64,000 nucleotides of DNA from Zychaea mexicana. Taxonomy: Eukaryota > Mucoromycota > Mucoromycetes > Mucorales > Lichtheimiaceae. The position numbers and the translations under genes are program-made. Below are positions 4,320 to 41,574 of this stretch, piece by piece. Position 1 is the first letter of the stretch. The number at the start of each line of letters is the position of its first letter. Under the pieces are notes generated by a model that was not told the origin of the DNA, searched no databases, and worked only from the letters and a program-made list of their open reading frames with translations. The stretch lies in contig NW_026516672.1 of assembly GCF_025766255.1 (NCBI RefSeq), positions 434,001 to 498,000 of the forward strand, written 5' to 3'.

Positions 4320-5357
4320 ATGTCCCAGCTAACTCGCCTGCCAGAGAACGTGTTGGTACGGATAAGCAACTACCTTCGATTAGACGACCTGGTCACGCTT
4401 CGGAGCGCCGACGCGAGGCTGGAAGAGTTCCTGCACGGACATCCGGAGGTGTGGACTAACAGTCACCTCTTGTTTCCGGCAGACGACTCGACGATTACGG
4501 ACGAGTTTGTGCAGCGCACAGTCCCCAAGATTCCTCGCAGCTATGCCCTGCGAGAGATGCGACTCGTCAACCTGCCGCTTACGTGGGCGGGGCTGCTGTG
4601 GATCTTTGATCACTTTGCACACTCGGTCGATCGGATCTATCTGGCGGCTCCGGAAGCAACGCTCGCCGACCTCGCACGCCACCTGTCGATTTTTGCGGGG
4701 AATCTGGCACTCCTTCAGGACGAGAACAAGATTCCCATTACGTTCCGCCAGTACGCTATCAACCACGCCGAGTACGAAGATACCCTCGCCCAGACAGATT
4801 ACATGGGCCGGAGCACCTTAAGGGGCTTGCGTCGGCATCTAGAAACGCTGAGATTAGATGATCCGCCCTTTGAACGCCTCGCTGAACTCTATGTCGAGAG
4901 CACGGACCATTCGCAGCAGCAGCAACAGCCGCCACCACCAACAGCAGCATCGTCATTTGACACCCACGAGAACAACCCTGTTCATCAAATTTACTTTGTC
5001 GCAGCCTTCCTTGCCGGCGGCCATGAGCTGCTGCGTCCCGGCAATAAGCGGGCACGTGAAGAAGATCAACATCATCACCACCATCACGGTAGCCCTAGCG
5101 ACGCATCTTCGTCGTCATCGTCGTTGCTAAGAAACAGCAAAATCCGTCGTCAGGACAACAGCAGCAGCAGCAACAGCACAGCTACTAACAACAGGGGTAG
5201 TAGCAGTGGCAGCAGCCATCCTGTAACGAATCGCTCATTACCACCACCACCACCGCCGCCGCCAACAACTACAACAGCAACATCTTCATCATCACCATCA
5301 GCGTCATCATCATCCATGCATCATACCCCACCTCAGCCTCGACTTGGATGTATTTAA
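4320..5357 (+). CDS. F-box protein with long low-complexity tail
   Basis: A single exon of 345 residues begins at the ATG at 4320. Residues about 3-45 (LPENVLVRISNYLRLDDLVTL) fit the F-box, the segment that binds Skp1 and ties a substrate receptor to an SCF ubiquitin ligase. Residues about 50-195 are ordered-looking with several leucine-rich stretches, but I see no clear LRR or WD40 repeat. From about residue 198 the protein is low complexity: Gln, Pro, His, Ser, Asn and a run of nine prolines. The substrate is unknown. Purine and pyrimidine runs after the stop look like a 3' UTR. Confidence 0.85.
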   Translation: MSQLTRLPENVLVRISNYLRLDDLVTLRSADARLEEFLHGHPEVWTNSHLLFPADDSTITDEFVQRTVPKIPRSYALREMRLVNLPLTWAGLLWIFDHFAHSVDRIYLAAPEATLADLARHLSIFAGNLALLQDENKIPITFRQYAINHAEYEDTLAQTDYMGRSTLRGLRRHLETLRLDDPPFERLAELYVESTDHSQQQQQPPPPTAASSFDTHENNPVHQIYFVAAFLAGGHELLRPGNKRAREEDQHHHHHHGSPSDASSSSSSLLRNSKIRRQDNSSSSNSTATNNRGSSSGSSHPVTNRSLPPPPPPPPTTTTATSSSSPSASSSSMHHTPPQPRLGCI

Positions 5358-7338
5358 AAAAAAGAGACCACTTTATCTCATTTGTATACCACCTCTCTTT
5401 CTTTGTTTCTTCTTTTTTCAATTGAGCATCACTATTCACTGGTGGTGCTGGATAAATAACGTGCGTGTATATATACTCCACCAAGTAGCACTTTTATACT
5501 CTATATGGTGATGTCGATGATGATCTTGTTTTGATTATGCGCTTTGGAGGAGTATTTTATGCGTGTCTGGTGTAGAAGTGCATGCACCCTGCTCGCGAGT
5601 CCTGGTATCCGTGTGCTTTTGTTGTTGTTCTGTACAAGCCAATGAGCGCCTTCCCCCCCCTTCATTTCAGATTGATTGTTTCCGGGTGTGTCCGGCTCGG
5701 AACGGAAAGAGAGAGTGGGAGAGAACGAGGGGAGGGAACTCCTCCATCACCGTTTAACAAATACAGGTTCTGTGTAGCCGTTCCAATACGTGTGGTTTGA
5801 CATGGACAGTCAGGTCTGGGTGCATCATCATCCTCTCTTTCTTTCCTTTCCTCAACTCCCCCTCCCCCCACAGTCTACCCCCCAAATGCGTAATAGCACC
5901 ACATCCCTTCTTTTTTACCTATTTCAAAACGAGCTAGTGCAAAGCAAAAGAGTCTACATACACACAGAGTTTAGCCTGGATCAAGCCAAAAGATAATAAT
6001 GGAACGGCATCACAGAAGAAGGGGTGTGCTGCATTATATCATGATGACTGCTTATAGCTGAGCACTAGGAAGACGCTAAAATAGTAGCATCGCGCCGCCA
6101 GAGCACCATAGATCCATAGATAGAATGTTCAAAGAAGCAGAACACGGGTGCCGCAGTATTTTATTTGGGAGGCGGGAGGCCGCCCGCGGAGTGGGTGGGG
6201 GGGGGGTGCTTGGGCTGTTAAGTATAAGATAGACAGGGCTCTTTTGTTGGGCCTGAACGGTCTGGGCGAAAAACAGACTCCCTTGTTATATTATAGCTGG
6301 TGGGATCCTGCTTACGATAAACACAGTGAAAGACTGCTGCTGCAAAGCAAATATGCATTTCGCTGCTGTATACAATCCCTCTCTTGATTTGGTATATCCT
6401 ATATACGATTTCGTTCTCGAGTATAGGTTGCAGTAACAGATATCAACATCAACAAAACAAAAAAAAAACAACAACTTTGGATGTCGTGGAACCCGCATGG
6501 ATGGTTAGAGCATTCGACAGTTTTCATCACCATGATCAATCATCACTTGGCAGTAGTACTACGTAGTAGGGCATGGTATTCAAAGACGAAAATGTCATAA
6601 GCTACAGACGAAGTTAGGAGTGGTGGAATGGGAGATGATCAGCTCCAGAAAAACAAAACAGAGCGACTGTTGGGGGAGGGGGTGGTGATGAAGATGATGC
6701 TTCAAATGATTGTGCAGGCATTTGTCGGCAACAACGGAATGGGTCCAGACTGTCGGGTTGTGGCTGCTGTTGTTAAGGACAGTCTGTGTGCCTTGTTTTG
6801 GTGAGGGGGTGGGGGGGGGAGTGAAGCGAGAGGAAGAGGGAGGAGGAAGGATTGGGATCGATAAAGTTGGTATGTGATCCCCCGTGACAAGTGTGGACCA
6901 CGACAAACGATTGACAAGCTCTCTCTCTTGTTCTTCTGCAGATCGCTCCAGAAGATATAAGAAACGTGTACAGCTATAGCTTGCATCCCCCTCCCACCCA
7001 CAAGAGAAAGCGCCTATCTCTCTGGTATCTCACCAAGTACCTCCTCTGTGTATGAATCGCCCCCCCCCAAGAAAGGGCGCACCCTCTTCTGCTGCTGCTG
7101 CCCCTGATTGTATAGGGCTAGGGACGGTGATTCGTGCTGTATTAATGATGCGTGTCTGTGTCTCTACCCACCACACGCACATGTACTGCTATGTGTATTT
7201 ACACATTAAGACGTGTGTTCCAGATGGCAGTTGAAAGAAATTGCCCTTCAGATATATAAATCCTCGCAAAAAAAGGGACCTCCTTTCTCTGTTCTTTACT
7301 ACCCATCACCTTTTTTTTTCTCACTTTCTGTTCTCACC
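5358..7338. other. Intergenic, no gene recognised
   Basis: About 2 kb rich in C/T or A/G homopolymer runs. Open frames here are short and low complexity. Only the promoter of the zinc-knuckle gene at the right end is recognisable. Confidence 0.5.
7253..7260 (+). promoter_or_regulatory. TATA box of the zinc-knuckle gene
   Basis: TATATAAA lies 79 bp before the ATG at 7339 and is followed by a pyrimidine-rich leader ending in CACC. The spacing leaves room for a start site about 30 bp downstream and a short 5' UTR, which argues that the 7339 ATG belongs to a first exon. Confidence 0.55.
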
Positions 7339-7531
7339 ATGCCGCCGATTGCGCCGGTGAATTTAAGCGGTGGCCAATGGTATGTTATTCAATCATGGAC
7401 GCGTTTCCCTCCCTCTTCTACTGTTATCACATACCACATAGCTCATAGCAATACCCTGCCATCTGATTCTTTGTAGTAGATTGTGTGGCAAGTACGGACA
7501 TCCACCAAGAAACTGCCCGCTGCTCAAGTAG
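7339..7531 (+). CDS. 31-residue single CCHC zinc-knuckle protein
   Basis: Two exons, 7339-7379 and 7477-7531, joined across a 97 nt intron with a consensus GTATGT donor and TGTAG acceptor. The joined frame encodes MPPIAPVNLSGGQ followed by CRLCGKYGHPPRNCP and a short basic end, then TAG. That is an exact zinc knuckle, CX2CX4HX4C, with the usual Gly before His and Pro after the last Cys. One cysteine codon is built across the splice junction, so the motif exists only in spliced RNA. CCHC knuckles normally bind single-stranded RNA or DNA; function here is unknown. A TATA box, a Kozak-like CACC and clean splice sites support a complete tiny gene, but an extra exon cannot be ruled out. Confidence 0.7.
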
Positions 7532-8484
7532 AAGGAAGATGGTTGAACCCTCGCCGCACGTCTGTCTCTGAGATACATCTTGGAGTCAACAAAGAGCGAT
7601 TCTACTACGCACAAGGCAACAAAAGAACAATTATTTTGAATTAACATCTTACTACGACACAACACAAACAACAAGCTCCAACAACAGCACTTCAAAAAGA
7701 AAAAGCAATGATGATCATCACACTCTCCTTGTATACGAGATTGACGACGTAGACCGTCATCAATCCTCACCATCTTCTCTATACATACTACTCTCTCTCT
7801 CTCTTTCTCTACATATTGTCTGTTCATTTCATTTTTCACCTGCTACTACTACTACTACTACTAGCACCGACAAACAGCACTCTCCGTCGAGAACAGCTCT
7901 CTCTCATCACACACTATTTTGCAACAACAAAACACATTACCCTAAAAGCTTAGTCAACAGGCTGTGTGGCATTAATCGTACCTATGCATGTGCAAGCACC
8001 CAATTCTTCTATTTCTTCCTTTACAACAACTCTATTTTTTTTTGTATGGCCCTTCTCCTACCCTTAGCTCTTGCTCTCTCTCTCTCTCTCTTACACTTTG
8101 TCAGGCTGACAATTGGACATAAATCAATACCCCTCCCCTTTCATTTATATCATCTTTCTCTCTCTCTCTGTGTAATACTCTCTTCTACTGTATATGATGT
8201 ATACCAAAAACAAAAAGCCATATCACAACGGCGTAAACAAGGTTCAGATGCAACAATATTTTAGTGAATAATGTACAATTTACTCGAGTTTTATTCTCTA
8301 TATTCACGATAATGGTATGGTGGTTGGGGGCCACTATATGTGTTCTGTGTGCGGTTATTTTAGTTCTGACACGTTGCAGACATGAAATTTGGTAGTACTG
8401 CGCGGCCTTTTGAATTATTCCCCATCAGTGTGCCCTTTTTTTTCTTTTAAACATAGTTTCCCTCATCTGCTCAACTCATTCACC
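7532..8484. other. Intergenic, CT-rich; 3' UTR of the zinc-knuckle gene and coatomer promoter
   Basis: Contains several (CT)n and (CTA)n runs. Open frames here are low-complexity Leu/Ser translations of these runs, so I do not call them genes. Confidence 0.5.
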
Positions 8485-11400
8485 ATGCAGATGCTAACAA
8501 AGGTAAAGCTATCAAGTGCATACTTTTCAAATATATCAACTTGGAAAAATAATATGTCAACAATGGCTGAATTATTACTTTTTTTAGTTTGAAAGCAAAA
8601 GTAATAGATGCAAAGGTCTCGCGTTTCACCCTAAGCGACCATGGATCTTGGCCTCCTTGCATAATGGGTGTATTCAGCTCTGGGATTATCGTATGGGAAC
8701 TTTACTTGAACGGTTTGACGAACACGATGGTATAACTCGACCTTCCTCTACTTGTTATATAACCAGGTTTTTTTTTGAAATGGCCCAGAGAAGAGGACAG
8801 CATTTACCAATAAAACACTTGTCATTCTCTCTTTCTCTCCAATCCATCTAGGTCCCGTACGCGGCATCGCGTTCCACCCGACACAACCACTGTTCGTTTC
8901 TGGTGGCGACGACTACAAAATCAAAGTCTGGAACTACAAAACGCGTCGTTGCTTGTTTACATTGAACGGCCACTTGGACTATGTACGAACCGTCGCCTTC
9001 CATCCTGAACACCCGTGGGTTATCTCGGCATCAGACGACCAAACGATCCGTATTTGGAACTGGCAATCGAGAAGCTGTATCGCCATCCTCACCGGCCATA
9101 ATCATTATGTCATGTGTGCGCAGTTTCATCCCAAGAACGACCTGGTTGTATCGGCATCGATGGATCAAACGGTCCGCGTGTGGGATATTTCGGGACTGCG
9201 CAAAAAGAATCAGGCGCCCACGCCAATGAGTTTCGAGGATTCGCTAAATCGTCAGAGTCAGGCTGACTTGTTTGGATCGACGGATGTGATGGTGAAATAT
9301 GTGCTCGAAGGACATGATCATGGTGTGAACTGGGCCTCGTTCCATCCCACGCTGCCTCTTATTGTGTCGGCTGGTGATGATCGTCAAGTGAAGCTTTGGC
9401 GTATGAGTGGTAGGTTGATTGTGTATTTCTAAATATATTTACTGCTGTTGCTTATAATTGATGGTATACCTTCTTCTAATTTTTTAATTAGAAACGAAGG
9501 CTTGGGAAGTGGATAGCTGCCGCGGCCATTACAACAATGTCTCCAGTGCCATCTTTCATCCACGTCAGGAACTCATTTTGTCCGATGGTGAAGACAAATC
9601 GATTCGCGTATGGGACATGACAAAACGCACCTCACTGGCAACTTTCAGAAGAGATCACGACCGTTTCTGGGTTCTCATTGCACATCCTGAACTCAACTTA
9701 TTTGCAGCAGGTTAAGTCTCCCGAAAGAAAAAAATATAATAAGAATACTGATTTTGTAAAGGGAAATTTCTCATCATAAATGCGAATGTCTTTATCTACC
9801 CATCAGGTCACGACAGCGGCTTAATTGTATTCAAACTCGAACGTGAGCGTCCGGCTTATCAAGTGCATCAGAACCAAGTGTTTTATGTCAAGGATAAGAT
9901 CATCCATATCCATGATCTGAGCAGTGGCGCCGACCAAGAAGTCCTCAGCGTTCGCAAGCTGGATTCCCCATATGTCGCTCCGCGTACTTTGTCTTATAAC
10001 CCTGCAGAACGCGCTGTTCTTGTTACCTCGGTAAATACTTTAAGACCAGTACCCGCTACTCCAAAGTACAAAAAAGCCATACGTATAGCAGCAGTAGCAA
10101 TCAGATTATTAAACACTTAACGTATTAGCCCCACGATGGCGGTGTCTACGAACTATACCATTTACCCAAAAACATCTCGGGCAGCCTAAAGGAGCCCTCA
10201 GACGAATCCAAACGCGGTGAGGGCCAAGCTGCCTTGTTTATTGCGCGCAACCGCTTTGCGGTATTCGACAAGGCTGGGCAGCAGGTCCAGATCCGAGATC
10301 TATCCAACAACCCTACCAAGTCATTCAAGACGCCAGGCCAAGTCAATGACATTTTTTATGCAGGCACTGGCGGGCTCTTAATGTCGACACCGACGTCGGT
10401 GATTCTGTATGATATCCAACAGCGACGCGTTTCGGCTGAGCTGCCGGCAACATCCGTCAAATATGTTATCTGGAATGCCGATATGTCCATGGTTGCTTTG
10501 CTCAGCAAGCATTGTAAGTTTGATTACAGTCGAACCGACATTTTTGTTTTTTTGCGGATTATTAAAGTGCACATCGTTTGTTGCAGCAATTACAATTGCC
10601 ACCAAGAATTTGAAGCAAGTCTGCCAAGTACACGAGACGATCCGTATCAAGAGCGGCACATGGGATGACAGCGGAGTGTTCATTTACTGCACATTGAACC
10701 ATATCAAATATGCTCTTCCACAGGGGTAAGATACATTCTTTGTTCCGGTGGGGGTGGGAGAGCAAGAAAGATCAGCGTGAAGAAAAAGGGCCTAGAACTC
10801 ATAAACATACATGTACAGTGATAGTGGCATCATCCGGACGCTCGAGCAGCCGGTCTATTTGACACGTGTCAAGGGCAAGACGCTCTATGCACTGGACCGT
10901 GAGGCTAAGCCGCGCACCATCAAGATTGATCCAACCGAATATCGCTTCAAACTGGCACTCGTTAAAAGACAGTACGAAGAAGTGTTGCATATCATCCGTA
11001 ATTCCAACCTGGTCGGTCAATCCATCATTGCTTACCTGCAAAAGAAAGGCTACCCCGAGGTCAGTAAGCTTGGCATGTTGTGTTGATTGCATGGTGTTGC
11101 ATACAATTCTTCTCTATGTGTAGAAACTCATATAAAGCACTTACTTTTGGGATTTCTAGATTGCATTGCATTTCGTACGCGATCCTCGCACGCGGTTTGA
11201 GCTCGCCTTGGAGTGTGGCAATCTTGATATTGCAGTAGAAACTGCAAAGACGATAGATCAGCCCGATTGCTGGGGCAAACTAGGCTCGGAAGCACTGCGA
11301 CAGGGCAATTTTAAGGTAAAATCATGACTGCCATGTAGGAAACAAAGACAAAGACAAGAAGTTTCTCATAAACGAAAACAAAACAAACAAAAAAAAAAGA

Positions 11401-13197
11401 TTGTGGAAATGGCGTATCAGCGGACCAAGAGCTATGATCGGCTTTCGTTCATGTACCTCGTGACAGGCAACGAAAACAATCTTAAACAAATGCTCAAGAT
11501 TGCCGAGCTTCGTAGCGAGCCCATCTCCAGCTTCCAGAATGCGCTGTATCTCGGGGATGTTGAAGAGCGCGTCCGGTTACTCGAGCAAGTCGGTCAAGGT
11601 AATGCGGGGCCCACCCGTTGATCCGTTCTATAATTGGGATAAACTTGTCTAAATGTGTATGTGCGTGTGTGCATTATTTGTTGTGTAGGCCCGTTGGCGT
11701 ACTTGACAGCCAAATCACATGGTTTAACAGAAAAGGCAGAGGCCATTTTGGCACAGTCTGGCAAGGACGAAAGCCAAGTCCAGCTTCCTAGTGCTGCCTG
11801 TGAATTGCCTGCTATTCCCAAGCCAGTGGTGCAACTGGAAGATCCCAACTGGCCGCTGTTGACTGTATCCAAAAGCTTCTTTGAAGGCGCGTTTGCTGCT
11901 GCTGCCGACACGCCATCTGCAGCAGCAACTGGAGTACCCAGTTTCACATACGATGAAAATGTCGACGAAGGAGCGGGGGATTGGGGCGTGGATGACGATG
12001 ATGACTTGGGTATTCCCGGCTTATCCAGCAAGACACCTGCCGAGGATGATTTGTTTGGCACACCCGAACCAGGACAGGTTGGAGGCGTAGAAGACCAAGA
12101 TGACGAAGAGGGTGGAGGCTGGGATCTGGATGACGATATCAAGGCTGATCTTGACGCCGAGATCAGCCAAGCTGCTGCACAGGCTACGGCTGAATTTGTG
12201 GCACCTACGGCCGGCACTAACGAAGCCGCCATCTGGAGCCAGAACTCGCCGCTGGCTGCCGATCACATTGCTGCCGGCTCCTTTGAAAGTGCCATGCAAG
12301 CCCTCAACCGTCAGATCGGCATTGTCAACTTTGAACCGCTCAAACAACACTTTCTCTCCATCTATCAGGCCTCGCGCATCAGCGTATCGTCTGTGGCTTC
12401 TAACCCTAACCTCTTTGCGCCTATCCGCCGCAATCCCGAAGAATCCAACATTCGGTCCAGTTGCCCCGTGGTCGTGTACAGCTTTGAGAATCTAAAGTCA
12501 AATCAGCTGCAGCAAGGATATCGTCTTTTTACAAGTGGCAAGCTCGTAGCTGCTGGTGCACAGTTCAAGCAGCTGCTCCACTCTGTTCCGTTCACGGTCG
12601 TGGCCAACAGCGAAGAAGCAAGCACGGTCAATGAACTCATTGATGTATGCCGAGAATATATTGTTGGTCTCCAGCTCGAGCAGGAACGTCGTGCTGTCAC
12701 GGGCGGTGCTGGCAAGCGCACGTTGGAGCTGGCGGCATACTTTACGCACTGTCAATTAGACGTTCGACATTCACAGCTGGCGCTTCGCCAGGCTACCAAG
12801 CAAGCATTCAAGCTCAAGAACTTTAACACAGCATCTCAATTCGCACGTCGACTGTTGGAATTAGCACCACCCAAGCCAGTAGCAGATGAGGTCAGTTACT
12901 ACTAATAATAACGACTCTTTTGGAAAAATCGAGACTAACTGGGAAATTTCTCAGGCACGGCAAATCCAAGCAGTGTGCGAGCGCAACCTCAAAGACGAGA
13001 TCGAGCTCAACTATGATCAATACAATCCGTTTGTTGTGTGCGGTATCTCGCTGGAGCCTATCTATCGGGGATCACCCACGGCGACATGTCCCTATTGCCG
13101 CTCATCATTCAAGCCCGAACACGAAGGAAAGCTGTGCACGATCTGTGAGCTGTCGCAGATCGGCGCCAAGGCATCCGGTCTACGCATCATGATCTAA
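8485..13197 (+). CDS. COPA: Coatomer subunit alpha (alpha-COP)
   Basis: Twelve exons: 8485-8502, 8588-8729, 8852-9409, 9492-9710, 9807-10030, 10129-10513, 10587-10725, 10819-11059, 11160-11315, 11400-11598, 11689-12890 and 12955-13197 give 1241 residues, a normal length for alpha-COP. The N-terminal WD40 propeller is strongly conserved ([37 protein letters not shown]), followed by the WD-associated alpha-solenoid and the C-terminal cysteine-bearing domain ending in SGLRIMI. Alpha-COP is part of the COPI coat that returns KKXX cargo from Golgi to ER. The 18 nt first exon has ATGs at 8485 and 8491; many family members start MLTKFE, so 8491 is possible. An acidic, Ala-rich linker lies near residues 640-760. 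Confidence 0.96.
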
Positions 13198-37309: not shown

Positions 37310-39562
<2,253 letters not shown>

Positions 39563-40854
39563 CCTGCCAATTTCTCCTTATTCTTCACCCCACTCTGACT
39601 CAAAATTGTTACCATCTTTGTGTGCTTTTACGCCATAGAAATAAAAAAAAAAGATCCATTGGTTTGAAATTGGACCACATATTCAGATTGAGCTATGTCA
39701 AAAAAAAATTGACGCCATACTACTGTACCGTGCAAAAATGGATGAGTGGTGAGATGAAAGATTTCCTGCTATATTGTCATTTCAAGCATGAGATGGACGG
39801 TAATATTTTCATATTGAAAACAATAACGTCAATAGAGAAACTGGAGGTTTAGTGAATATGTGAAATTATGCTAAATTTAGCCCGGTGTACTGCTGAATTT
39901 ACGCTACAACCATTTTCGTCTGACTGTTGTTACTGCCAGCACTATCTTTTGAAGTGTAGCGGGCAACTGCCAAGGAAAGCTCGGTTGCCTTTTGTAAAAG
40001 TAATATTAAGCGATCAGTCAGGAGGCCATCGTAACAATTTGGCAGTACTATAGAAAGCCTTGTTCTCTTCTTTTTACCAGTTTAATTGCTTCTGCATCAT
40101 CATGATAGTATCTGCTTTCAAGAATCCTTTGGCTGTTTTACAAAAGATCAAAAGTAATTATACATACACATCTAACTTGGATTGGGTTTTGGTAGCGTAC
40201 TTTTCCAAAAATCTTTTCTGTAGGTACATTTAATTATTGCCACATTTAGTGAGAATGAGAAACGGACAGCTACACTACAAAAGGCTAATTGATGCGAATG
40301 AATGAAAAGTTGCGTGTATCAGTAGCAGTAATGTTGAGAGACAGTAGCATGAGAGATTGGTGGCAAGACCCAACAAGTTGGATTATGTAACTTCCCTAAT
40401 GAGCTTATGTACTGGGCCTTTTATACTGCAAAGAAATCAAGGCAAACATCATTTAGTTTGGGTTGGCGATCTGGTTCGTGTATATGTGAATATGGGGATG
40501 GTCTGTTTGCTTTGCGATACGGTTTTTTATTTTGCCACCAGCAATTTGCAATCATTGTTGGTATAGTCGTGAAGGTAAACCAGCTGTATTGTTTTTGAGA
40601 GCACACATGCGAATGCACAGCCTACGGTTTTCTCGACGCCTCAAGCACAAAAAGGCTCATTTGCAACTACATAACTGCTCCAGAGAAAGCACCAACAAGT
40701 ACCAAGCGCAATGGCAGTAGGAAGATGTAAAAAAAAAGATCGCGTTTATTACAATCGTCACTCGATCTGCCCAATAGTTACAATTACATTATTTAAGAAA
40801 GTACAATAAGAAACCAAGTCTATTTGATGTTGCCTGACAAGTCGACCGACTTTT
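39563..40854. other. Intergenic, no gene recognised
   Basis: AT-rich sequence following the forkhead gene. No conserved-looking frame, RNA gene or repeat is visible until the repeat island begins near 40855. Confidence 0.5.
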
Positions 40855-41574
40855 ATGAATCCTTCGTTCCTCAAGGGAGGTTGCCCTCCCTTGTTCCCCG
40901 CAAGCCTCAGTTCCCGGCAGAACCTACACCTCTCCCTTTCTTGTCCACAAGCCTCAGTTCCCGACGGAACCTACTCCTCCACAGTGCCTACAAATAAAGA
41001 AACATCAAAAAGGTCTGCCAACGGCGGGAATATACGTACCTCGACTTTTATGAATCCTCCGTTCCCAAGGGAGGTTGCCCTCCCTTGTTTTCCGCAAGCC
41101 TCAGTTCCCGTCGGAACCTACTCCTCCACAGTTCCTACAAATAAAAGAAATATGATAGCACAAAGGTCTGTCAGCGGCGAACATATACGTACCTCCACAA
41201 GGGAGGTTGCCCTCCCTTGTTTTCCGCAAGCCTCAGTTCCCGTCGGAACCTACTCCTCCCTTTCTTGTCCGCAAGCCTCAGTTCCCGACAGAACCTACTC
41301 CTCCACAGTTCCTACAAATAAAAGAAATATGATAGCACAAAGGTCTGTCAGCGGCGAACATATACGTACCTCCACAAGGGAGGTTGCCCTCCCTTGTTTT
41401 CCGCAAGCCTCAGTTCCCGTCGGAACCTACTCCTCCCTTTCTTGTCCGCAAGCCTCAGTTCCCGACAGAACCTACTCCTCCACAGTTCCTACAATTAAAA
41501 GAAATAGCACAAAGGTCTGTCAGCGGCGAACATATACGTACCTCTTTGCACACACTCTCGCTTTCAGTTTTTGA
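40855..41574 (+). repeat. Tandem repeat island with hairpin-forming units
   Basis: Four related units carry a perfect hairpin: CAAGGGAGG, loop TTGC, CCTCCCTTG. They sit at 40872-40893, 41066-41087, 41198-41219 and 41375-41396. The hairpins are followed by one or two copies of a GCAAGCCTCAGTTCCCG module, itself able to pair GTTCC with GGAAC. The spacing is 194, 132 and 177 bp; the last two are multiples of three. One plus-strand frame stays open for 239 codons and repeats a PQASVPVGTYSS-like motif. Whether it is translated is unknown; internal AT-rich linkers look noncoding. Confidence 0.85.

Follow-up and report, generated by a model that had tools for sequence, protein, structure and literature searches.

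A conserved family of spliced genes in Zychaea mexicana predicted to encode single-zinc-knuckle microproteins

Zinc knuckles have mostly been described as modules in larger proteins, and a two-exon frame of Zychaea mexicana predicted to encode 31 residues and little more than one CCHC knuckle raises the question of whether a single knuckle can make up a whole gene. The window, that is, the whole stretch of 64,000 nt that was analysed, corresponds to C295:434001-498000 in a genome of 50.3 Mb and 305 contigs. Our answer, to which we give a probability of about 0.85, is a gene family with the two-exon gene model described below and with the zinc knuckle as its active part.

The window gene and its relatives in the genome

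When the DNA was re-read, the coordinates, splice sites, frame, and knuckle of the original prediction were all present exactly as written, as was the TATA box that it had placed in front of the gene. The features of the window gene are as follows.

7253..7261, forward strand: TATA box TATATAAAT, 86 nt 5' of the ATG (TATA-like sites begin at 7253 and 7255, 86 and 84 nt away)
7339..7379, forward strand: coding part of exon 1, which begins with the ATG and breaks off two bases into the Cys codon that the intron splits, MPPIAPVNLSGGQ + TG; a related exon 1 is found at four other loci
7380..7476, forward strand: phase-2 intron of 97 nt, GTATGT...TTTGTAG
7463..7467, forward strand: branch-point-like CTGAT, starting 14 nt before the end of the intron
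7477..7531, forward strand: exon 2, which finishes Cys14 and continues with RLCGKYGHPPRNCPLLK and TAG; zinc knuckle CX2CX4HX4C

Exon 1 reads ATG CCG CCG ATT GCG CCG GTG AAT TTA AGC GGT GGC CAA TG, and exon 2 reads T AGA TTG TGT GGC AAG TAC GGA CAT CCA CCA AGA AAC TGC CCG CTG CTC AAG TAG. The spliced product, MPPIAPVNLSGGQCRLCGKYGHPPRNCPLLK, has 31 residues and a CX2CX4HX4C knuckle whose ligands are Cys14, Cys17, His22, and Cys27. The unspliced frame, which had been said to end at the acceptor TAG without a knuckle, did so after 45 residues. Elsewhere in the window, a forkhead-like frame (named by eye) with a long glutamine run was seen at 38339-39562, and an open frame of repeated units, ALPCFPQASVPVGTYSS...NKRNMIAQRSVSGEHIRTSTREV, which resembles a long tandem repeat, at 40828-41574.

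Searched against its own genome, the 31-residue product had a weak match (E 0.055) at C295:619960-620040 on the minus strand. The COPA exon just 3' of the window gene has a second copy at C295:617.2-617.9k, also on the minus strand, with 93% and 87% identity, and because the exon is duplicated there, the weak match sits upstream of COPA2 as the window gene sits upstream of COPA1. The two COPA genes are placed as follows.

Window 8485-13197: COPA1 (coatomer alpha), downstream of the window microgene
C295:~618.4k downwards, minus strand: COPA2, on the same contig and in the orientation opposite to COPA1

Read on the minus strand, the second locus (C295b) consisted of ATGCCACCA...GGTGGGCAATG, a 74-nt intron GTAACA...ACAATAG, and then TGCCTGGTGCGGAAAG...CTCAAATAA. 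Spliced, it encodes MPPTVITIKPLNLEGGQCAWCGKYGHKRPSCPFLK, and its intron interrupts the first Cys codon just where that of the window gene does; this agreement in position and intron made the weak match firm. When 119,655 GT-AG pairs from both strands of 84 kb were scored against the window peptide, the window model scored 163 and C295b came second with 106; the next five pairs (95-87) reuse the window's own exon 2, and the best pair without that exon and after C295b, at 63, uses C295b's own donor. By blastn at E<=1, the two microgene stretches did not match. In an alignment of 31 codons, 21 residues were identical, 12 of them through different codons (NG86 pS 0.90, pN 0.23), and the first 114 WD40 codons of COPA gave pS 0.69 and pN 0.015 copy against copy. 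The two COPA genes thus appear to stem from an old duplication that took the microgene along.

A genome search with the C295b product revealed four further loci, on C20 (E 9.7e-5), C300 (0.0022), C223 (0.0026), and C101 (0.044), each matching from residue 18 or 19, where exon 2 starts. The second exons lie at the following positions.

C295:619957-620011, minus strand: exon 2 of the paralogue C295b
C20:58751-58805, minus strand: exon 2 of the C20 paralogue
C223:491688-491742, minus strand: exon 2 of the C223 paralogue
C101:275184-275238, plus strand: exon 2 of the C101 paralogue
C300, from base 81, plus strand: exon 2 only, TWCGKYGHGRLACPLLK

An exon 1 with the same split codon was present in the flanks of C20, C223, and C101, whose products are MVYCCFSATSSSFSTQPDPNGLPVNSIRDLDLRGGQ-C-TWCGKYGHRRPVCPLLR, MYPRIPPLDLKGGQ-C-TWCGKYGHQHKVCPYLK, and MACKYHLHSHRFNQAAPNQPLPTHVYSIPPVNVSGHQ-C-TWCGKYGHPMVYCPYLR, respectively; exon 1 of C300 is absent because the contig starts 80 nt before exon 2. 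Genome searches with the C223, C101, and C20 products found five of the six loci and none that was new. The window copy was absent from the matches of these three products and of the C295b product up to E 10, and its tie to the family consists of the match to C295b (E 0.055) and tblastx matches to C223 and C101. Among the six loci, 12 of the 15 pairs matched in tblastx, and the microgene exons were the sole match in ten of the 12; the exceptions were the window and C295b, which also share COPA (8 of 101 segments shown), and C223 and C300, which also share a downstream gene. At 1e-3, tblastx gave no match for window-C20, window-C300, or C295b-C223. The shared COPA and C223/C300 neighbours look as they would after large duplications. 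The C223/C300 downstream neighbour (L028 8889-9497 on the reverse complement; L027 2609-3622) gave 71% in tblastx over 73 residues (...QYHPEWGVL.EQDFHPL..KHQRDLEN...), and its frame at C300 had no Pfam match at E<=0.01.

Judged by sequence, the window gene is one of six copies, five of them complete and one cut by the contig start. The predicted two-exon model with a knuckle completed by splicing was thereby backed by four complete paralogues and a truncated one in the same genome, as was the free-standing nature of the knuckle, and the phase-2 intron position recurred in every copy of this genome having exon 1. The free-standing single knuckle held good, but the gene is one of six and not an isolated oddity. 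The predicted signals were likewise all present in the window copy, but the CACC-ATG context is not common to the family, and the GTATGT donor occurs in only three of the five complete copies, the others having GTAACA and GTAAGC.

Two other candidates were rejected as members. One (L012), which matched the window peptide at E 0.13, coincides with a zf-CCHC match and has surroundings that are retroelement-like by eye; the other (L021, from Agrobacterium), the sole confirmed locus of 95 stretches, has GQCRLCGK in common and no knuckle. None of 22 stretches of viral contigs was related to the family, the exact window-copy pattern was absent from viral and prokaryotic contigs, and Rfam gave one match in 5300-8500, at 17.7 of 70 bits and far under threshold. 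No longer paralogue with the same domain, as expected for a miP-type microProtein derived from a larger relative, was recognised in protein searches of the genome, which proceed exon by exon and are blind to gene length.

The position of the phase-2 intron is identical in all five complete copies, the first Cys codon being split as TG|T in four and as TG|C in C223, and the introns measure 97, 74, 177, 69, and 109 nt. In each complete copy a single candidate ATG lies 13-37 codons ahead of the split Cys, and an upstream stop closes the frame after 22-71 open codons before the join. TATA[AT]A[AT] lies 86-176 nt before the ATG in all five (122-176 nt in the four besides the window copy); as background, it occurs in 376 of 2226 overlapping 250-nt windows. 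Exon 1 codes for a short tail ending in [LV][DN][LV]xG[GH]Q, with GGQ nearly invariant before the first Cys, and exon 2, 55 nt including the stop, ends with CGKYGHx4CPxL[KR]-stop in all six copies, giving the family signature GGQ-C-T-W-CGKYGH-x4-CP-x-L-[KR]-stop. In the six-row alignment, C17, G18, K19, Y20, G21, H22, C27, P28, and L30 (window numbering) are invariant, and the first Cys is kept in the five rows covering it. The window copy departs most from the family pattern: it reads C-R-L-C, and ahead of the second Cys four of the others have T-W and one has A-W. The products of the complete copies have 31-55 residues and an excess of K/R over D/E of +3 or +4, and retention of the intron leaves no knuckle in any of the five.

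Gapped identity (introns 0.66-0.88, exon 2 0.68-0.83) was too crude a measure of conservation and was replaced by alignment scores against shuffles. The local-alignment z of exon 2 was 3.1-11.5 in the ten pairs of complete copies, with 0 to 5 of 300 shuffles as high, whereas the introns, less 6 nt at each end, were at the shuffled level in nine of the ten pairs (z -2.0 to 0.3); the tenth pair, window-C101, stood out with z 3.7 and none of 300 shuffles reaching that score, and this likeness counts against the model. The 200 nt 3' of the stop gave z -1.4 to 2.8 between copies. Over 26 codons, NG86 gave pS 0.59-1.19 (saturated) and pN 0.19-0.33 in the ten pairs, with 15-19 of 26 residues identical per pair. 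The similarity of exon 2, the divergence of the introns, the saturation of synonymous sites, and the low pN indicated conservation at the protein level; as far as sequence comparison goes, the family is thus conserved, its frames are intact, and its intron position is shared. We regard it as virtually certain that the window feature is a real protein-coding gene.

Zinc-knuckle assignment and predicted action

The spacing CX2CX4HX4C was found in all five complete copies, and C300 has the other three ligands in register. In Pfam, no cut-off was reached by any of the five complete products. The zf-CCHC family (PF00098) was listed for one of the five, the window copy, at 13.3 of 20.8 bits, and not at E<=5 for the four others; zf-CCHC_4 (PF14392) matched four of the five, the best score of 16.2 of 27 bits being under cut-off, and zf-ChsH2 (PF12172) matched three, its 20.7 of 23.2 bits for C20 being the highest Pfam score of any product. 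Among solved structures, a family profile ranked CCHC knuckles first, namely those of TUT7 (E 6.8e-5), TUT4 (0.0014), and HIV-1 NC (0.005). Since the ligand spacing is kept, knuckle structures are nearest, and the fourth ligand of a ribbon fails, the product likely functions like a zinc knuckle, though it stays short of formal Pfam membership. PMC7599994 describes an isolated 18-residue CCHC peptide that binds Zn and Co and is folded by zinc into a mini-globular knuckle. From such peptides and from the ligand pattern, zinc binding by the family is predicted with high confidence.

In the action that we propose, each complete gene, presumably transcribed, would have a TATA promoter, an exon 1 coding for a short tail, and an intron placed between the second and third bases of the codon for the first zinc ligand. 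Exon 2 would supply the rest of CX2CX4HX4C and stop three residues after the Pro following the last ligand, so that none of the five complete copies would form the metal site unless spliced. With its 31-55 residues, the product would fold around one zinc ion without a partner domain and, as a small basic stand-alone knuckle, would bind single-stranded RNA or dock on an RNP or protein partner. Its contact surface would be formed by two conserved elements, the G-K-Y-G loop and the GGQ tail, and by the Trp that is usual at knuckle position 3.

Knuckle positions 2-3, which we take to be Ala27-Tyr28 in MoMuLV NC, are T-W in four of the six copies, A-W in one, and R-L in the window copy. In PMC7599994, MoMuLV NC is described as binding a UCUG linker with its single knuckle, the contacts being Leu21, Ala27, Tyr28, Trp35, and Ala36. 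Because of these contacts and of the T-W, A-W, or R-L at the matching knuckle positions, we favour, by analogy, a stand-alone, basic, zinc-dependent RNA-binding or RNP-docking microprotein. In RNA-binding knuckles the residue after the His is often a base-stacking hydrophobic, and its replacement in the six copies by P, K, R, Q, P, or G counts against RNA binding. We give nucleic-acid binding by the family knuckle about even odds.

A credible alternative, which we hold to be somewhat less probable than not, is a protein-protein docking element, that is, a tiny adaptor subunit that would seat its basic knuckle and GGQ tail in a groove of a larger protein of an RNP or of membrane traffic. It would suit the variation at the base-stacking positions (knuckle position 2 and the residue after the His) and the conservation of the G-K-Y-G loop, of the Pro that follows the final Cys, and of the near-invariant GGQ, which lie partly outside the metal site, and there is precedent in the TRAMP/Air proteins, which use knuckles in protein contacts. 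However, five of the six copies have Trp at position 3, where the single knuckle of MoMuLV has its RNA-contacting aromatic, and the net charge is positive in all five complete copies.

Within the favoured RNA-binding or RNP-docking reading, a bolder and rather unlikely version is that these single-knuckle microproteins form an old, overlooked fungal family, multicopy since large duplications, whose members bind RNA in trans and on their own. If this were true, then, with the first zinc ligand interrupted by the intron in all complete copies, regulated splicing would turn the metal site strictly on or off, and the protein itself might sense this on its own pre-mRNA. The window copy also has a tandem TAG|TAG acceptor, and use of the distal site would, as read from the DNA, give a TGA stop at the join; the other complete copies have TGC, TAC, CAC, and TAC after the acceptor, and since the tandem acceptor is not common to the family, it was dropped as a proposed switch.

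It is improbable that the product is a shortened rubredoxin-like zinc ribbon related to zf-ChsH2 instead of a classical zinc knuckle. We retained the ribbon as a low rival because zf-ChsH2, which shares the CX2CG start and the CP that follows, matched three of the five products and gave the top Pfam score (C20, 20.7 bits), although this too was under cut-off. Ribbons of this kind use two CX2C ligand pairs, whereas the second pair is incomplete here (CPxL in all six copies) and an invariant His stands at knuckle spacing instead. The profile search of solved structures put CCHC knuckles first, and a DUF35 chain appeared only in a two-sequence search (E 0.83). The ribbon was rejected because its fourth ligand is missing.

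Other explanations of the locus

That the two exons belong to a larger gene with further exons upstream or downstream has little probability. A plausible GTATGT...CTGCAG pair was seen by eye upstream, near 6868-6941, but the stop after CPxL[KR] has the same position in all six copies, a stop closes the frame ahead of the join in each of the five complete copies, and no 30 codons from the upstream gene frame to COPA had a coding score above 0.20, which is below the CDS mean of 0.30, except for 0.70 in a segment overlapping the end of the upstream gene frame. The common stop and the closed frames led us to reject a larger gene. The original prediction had named joining to large upstream exons as an outcome that would speak against it; with a single candidate ATG and a frame closed upstream in each complete copy, such joining was unsupported, and an upstream non-coding exon may still be compatible with closed coding frames. 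The intron-like sequence at 6868-6941 reads GTATGT...GATTGAC...TTCTTCTGCAG, with flanks that by eye are without convincing coding exons. The upstream neighbour frame (4320-5357, 345 aa) is F-box-like by eye; its first 190 residues had no Pfam match at E<=0.01, and its first 187 residues matched only themselves in the genome.

We give an equally small chance to an origin from the Gag nucleocapsid of a retroelement, whether as a remnant or as a domesticated piece. Gag typically carries CCHC knuckles, and the genome has 59 zf-CCHC matches (150 of 175 candidates scored), many of them in long frames, but no family member is among the 59. The DNA of 7200-7700 matched only itself in the genome, a spliceosomal intron is common to unlinked copies, TATA boxes are present, and by eye no gag or protease frame lies beside the window copy, which is followed downstream by COPA. 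A Gag remnant was rejected because of the single copy in the DNA search, the intron, and the TATA boxes. Slighter still is the case for a spliced upstream ORF in a long COPA leader that would regulate COPA instead of acting as a protein, for although the microgene lies head-to-tail upstream of both COPA copies, with stop-to-ATG distances of ~0.95 and 1.58 kb, there is no COPA likeness in the 6 to 9.5 kb around the C20, C223, C101, and C300 copies, each complete copy has its own TATA box, and the peptide is conserved at unlinked loci. It was the occurrence of copies unlinked to COPA that led to its rejection.

Both strands of the window contain 284 GTATGT...YAG pairs of 50-250 nt, and a CX2CX4HX4C motif spans the join in one of them, the window gene. 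Widening the donor to GTR gave 19,466 pairs (the 284 included) and no further join-spanning motif, and no unspliced motif was present in the six frames of the window. None of 60 order-1 Markov resamples of the window produced the motif across a join with a GTATGT donor, and the unspliced motif had a mean of 0.2. The decisive support for the window gene is nevertheless its paralogues with the same intron position, not this chance statistic. The codon log-likelihood per codon of the window gene was -0.26, compared with means of 0.30 for CDS and -0.33 for non-coding sequence (CDS reference of 2144 codons from 11 window stretches), and a value as low occurred in 3.6% of CDS pieces; its CAI was 0.61, with 5.9% of CDS pieces as low. 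The codon usage of these 31 codons resembles that of non-coding sequence and lends the gene no support; the Cys-rich composition and perhaps low expression may explain it. A chance ORF with an accidental spliced model would accord with this codon usage, with the Pfam cut-offs not being reached, and with the thought that scanning very many windows might yield one such join, but it is negligible in probability and was rejected because of the four complete paralogues, in which the split codon recurs, the protein is conserved, the introns have diverged, and synonymous sites are saturated.

Comparison with known systems

A protein-database search with the window copy, the most divergent member and the only one used, found no homologue. 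Among the best 120 of 298 matches in a control search of the same database with the COPA exon were Linnemannia COPA at 82% and unnamed entries at 96% and, with 74% of the query covered, at 98%, which indicated that fungal proteins are represented in the database. The genomics of the family covers its own genome alone, searched with single products, and conservation was shown among paralogues. In the literature, within a scope that left most subscription papers outside, we found no conserved whole-gene single-knuckle family with a ligand-splitting intron. The fold itself is known, and the novelty would lie in this kind of family. Such genes fall into a blind spot of annotation, with split short exons, 31-55 residues, scores under Pfam cut-offs, and plain codon usage, and are recognised only via their paralogues and shared intron position. 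The family signature is directly searchable in other fungal genomes and transcriptomes.

The products share with zf-CCHC and zf-CCHC_4 the CX2CX4HX4C spacing, the CG..GH core, and the Pro after the last Cys; they differ in scoring under the curated cut-offs and in having a lone knuckle in 31-55 residues, a conserved tail of their own, and a ligand-splitting intron. TUT7 and TUT4 are the best profile matches among solved structures and share C..CGK.GH...CP, but their knuckles lie inside chains of ~1500 residues and the match is confined to the knuckle pattern. CNBP and Gis2 are cellular proteins made essentially of CCHC knuckles, several in tandem; the present products are likewise made essentially of a CCHC knuckle, but with one per product in all five complete copies. 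A CNBP/Gis2-like multi-knuckle gene (L001, C2:238156-238531), with its knuckles spread over several frames by eye, was also observed. Among fungi, a survey of seven CCHC genes has reportedly been made in Ustilaginoidea virens (PMC8619310).

MoMuLV NC, which is cut from Gag by protease, resembles the family in having one CCHC knuckle in a small basic protein with an aromatic at position 3, whereas the family consists of cellular spliced genes without a Trp after the His. The single knuckle of MoMuLV NC binds single-stranded RNA (PMC7599994). Very small one-domain zinc-finger proteins are present in Haloferax volcanii, according to PMC6562870; these microproteins are alike in size and in their single zinc-finger domain, but they are archaeal and no homology is claimed. 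The family offers a minimal natural system in which to ask what one knuckle does in the cell.
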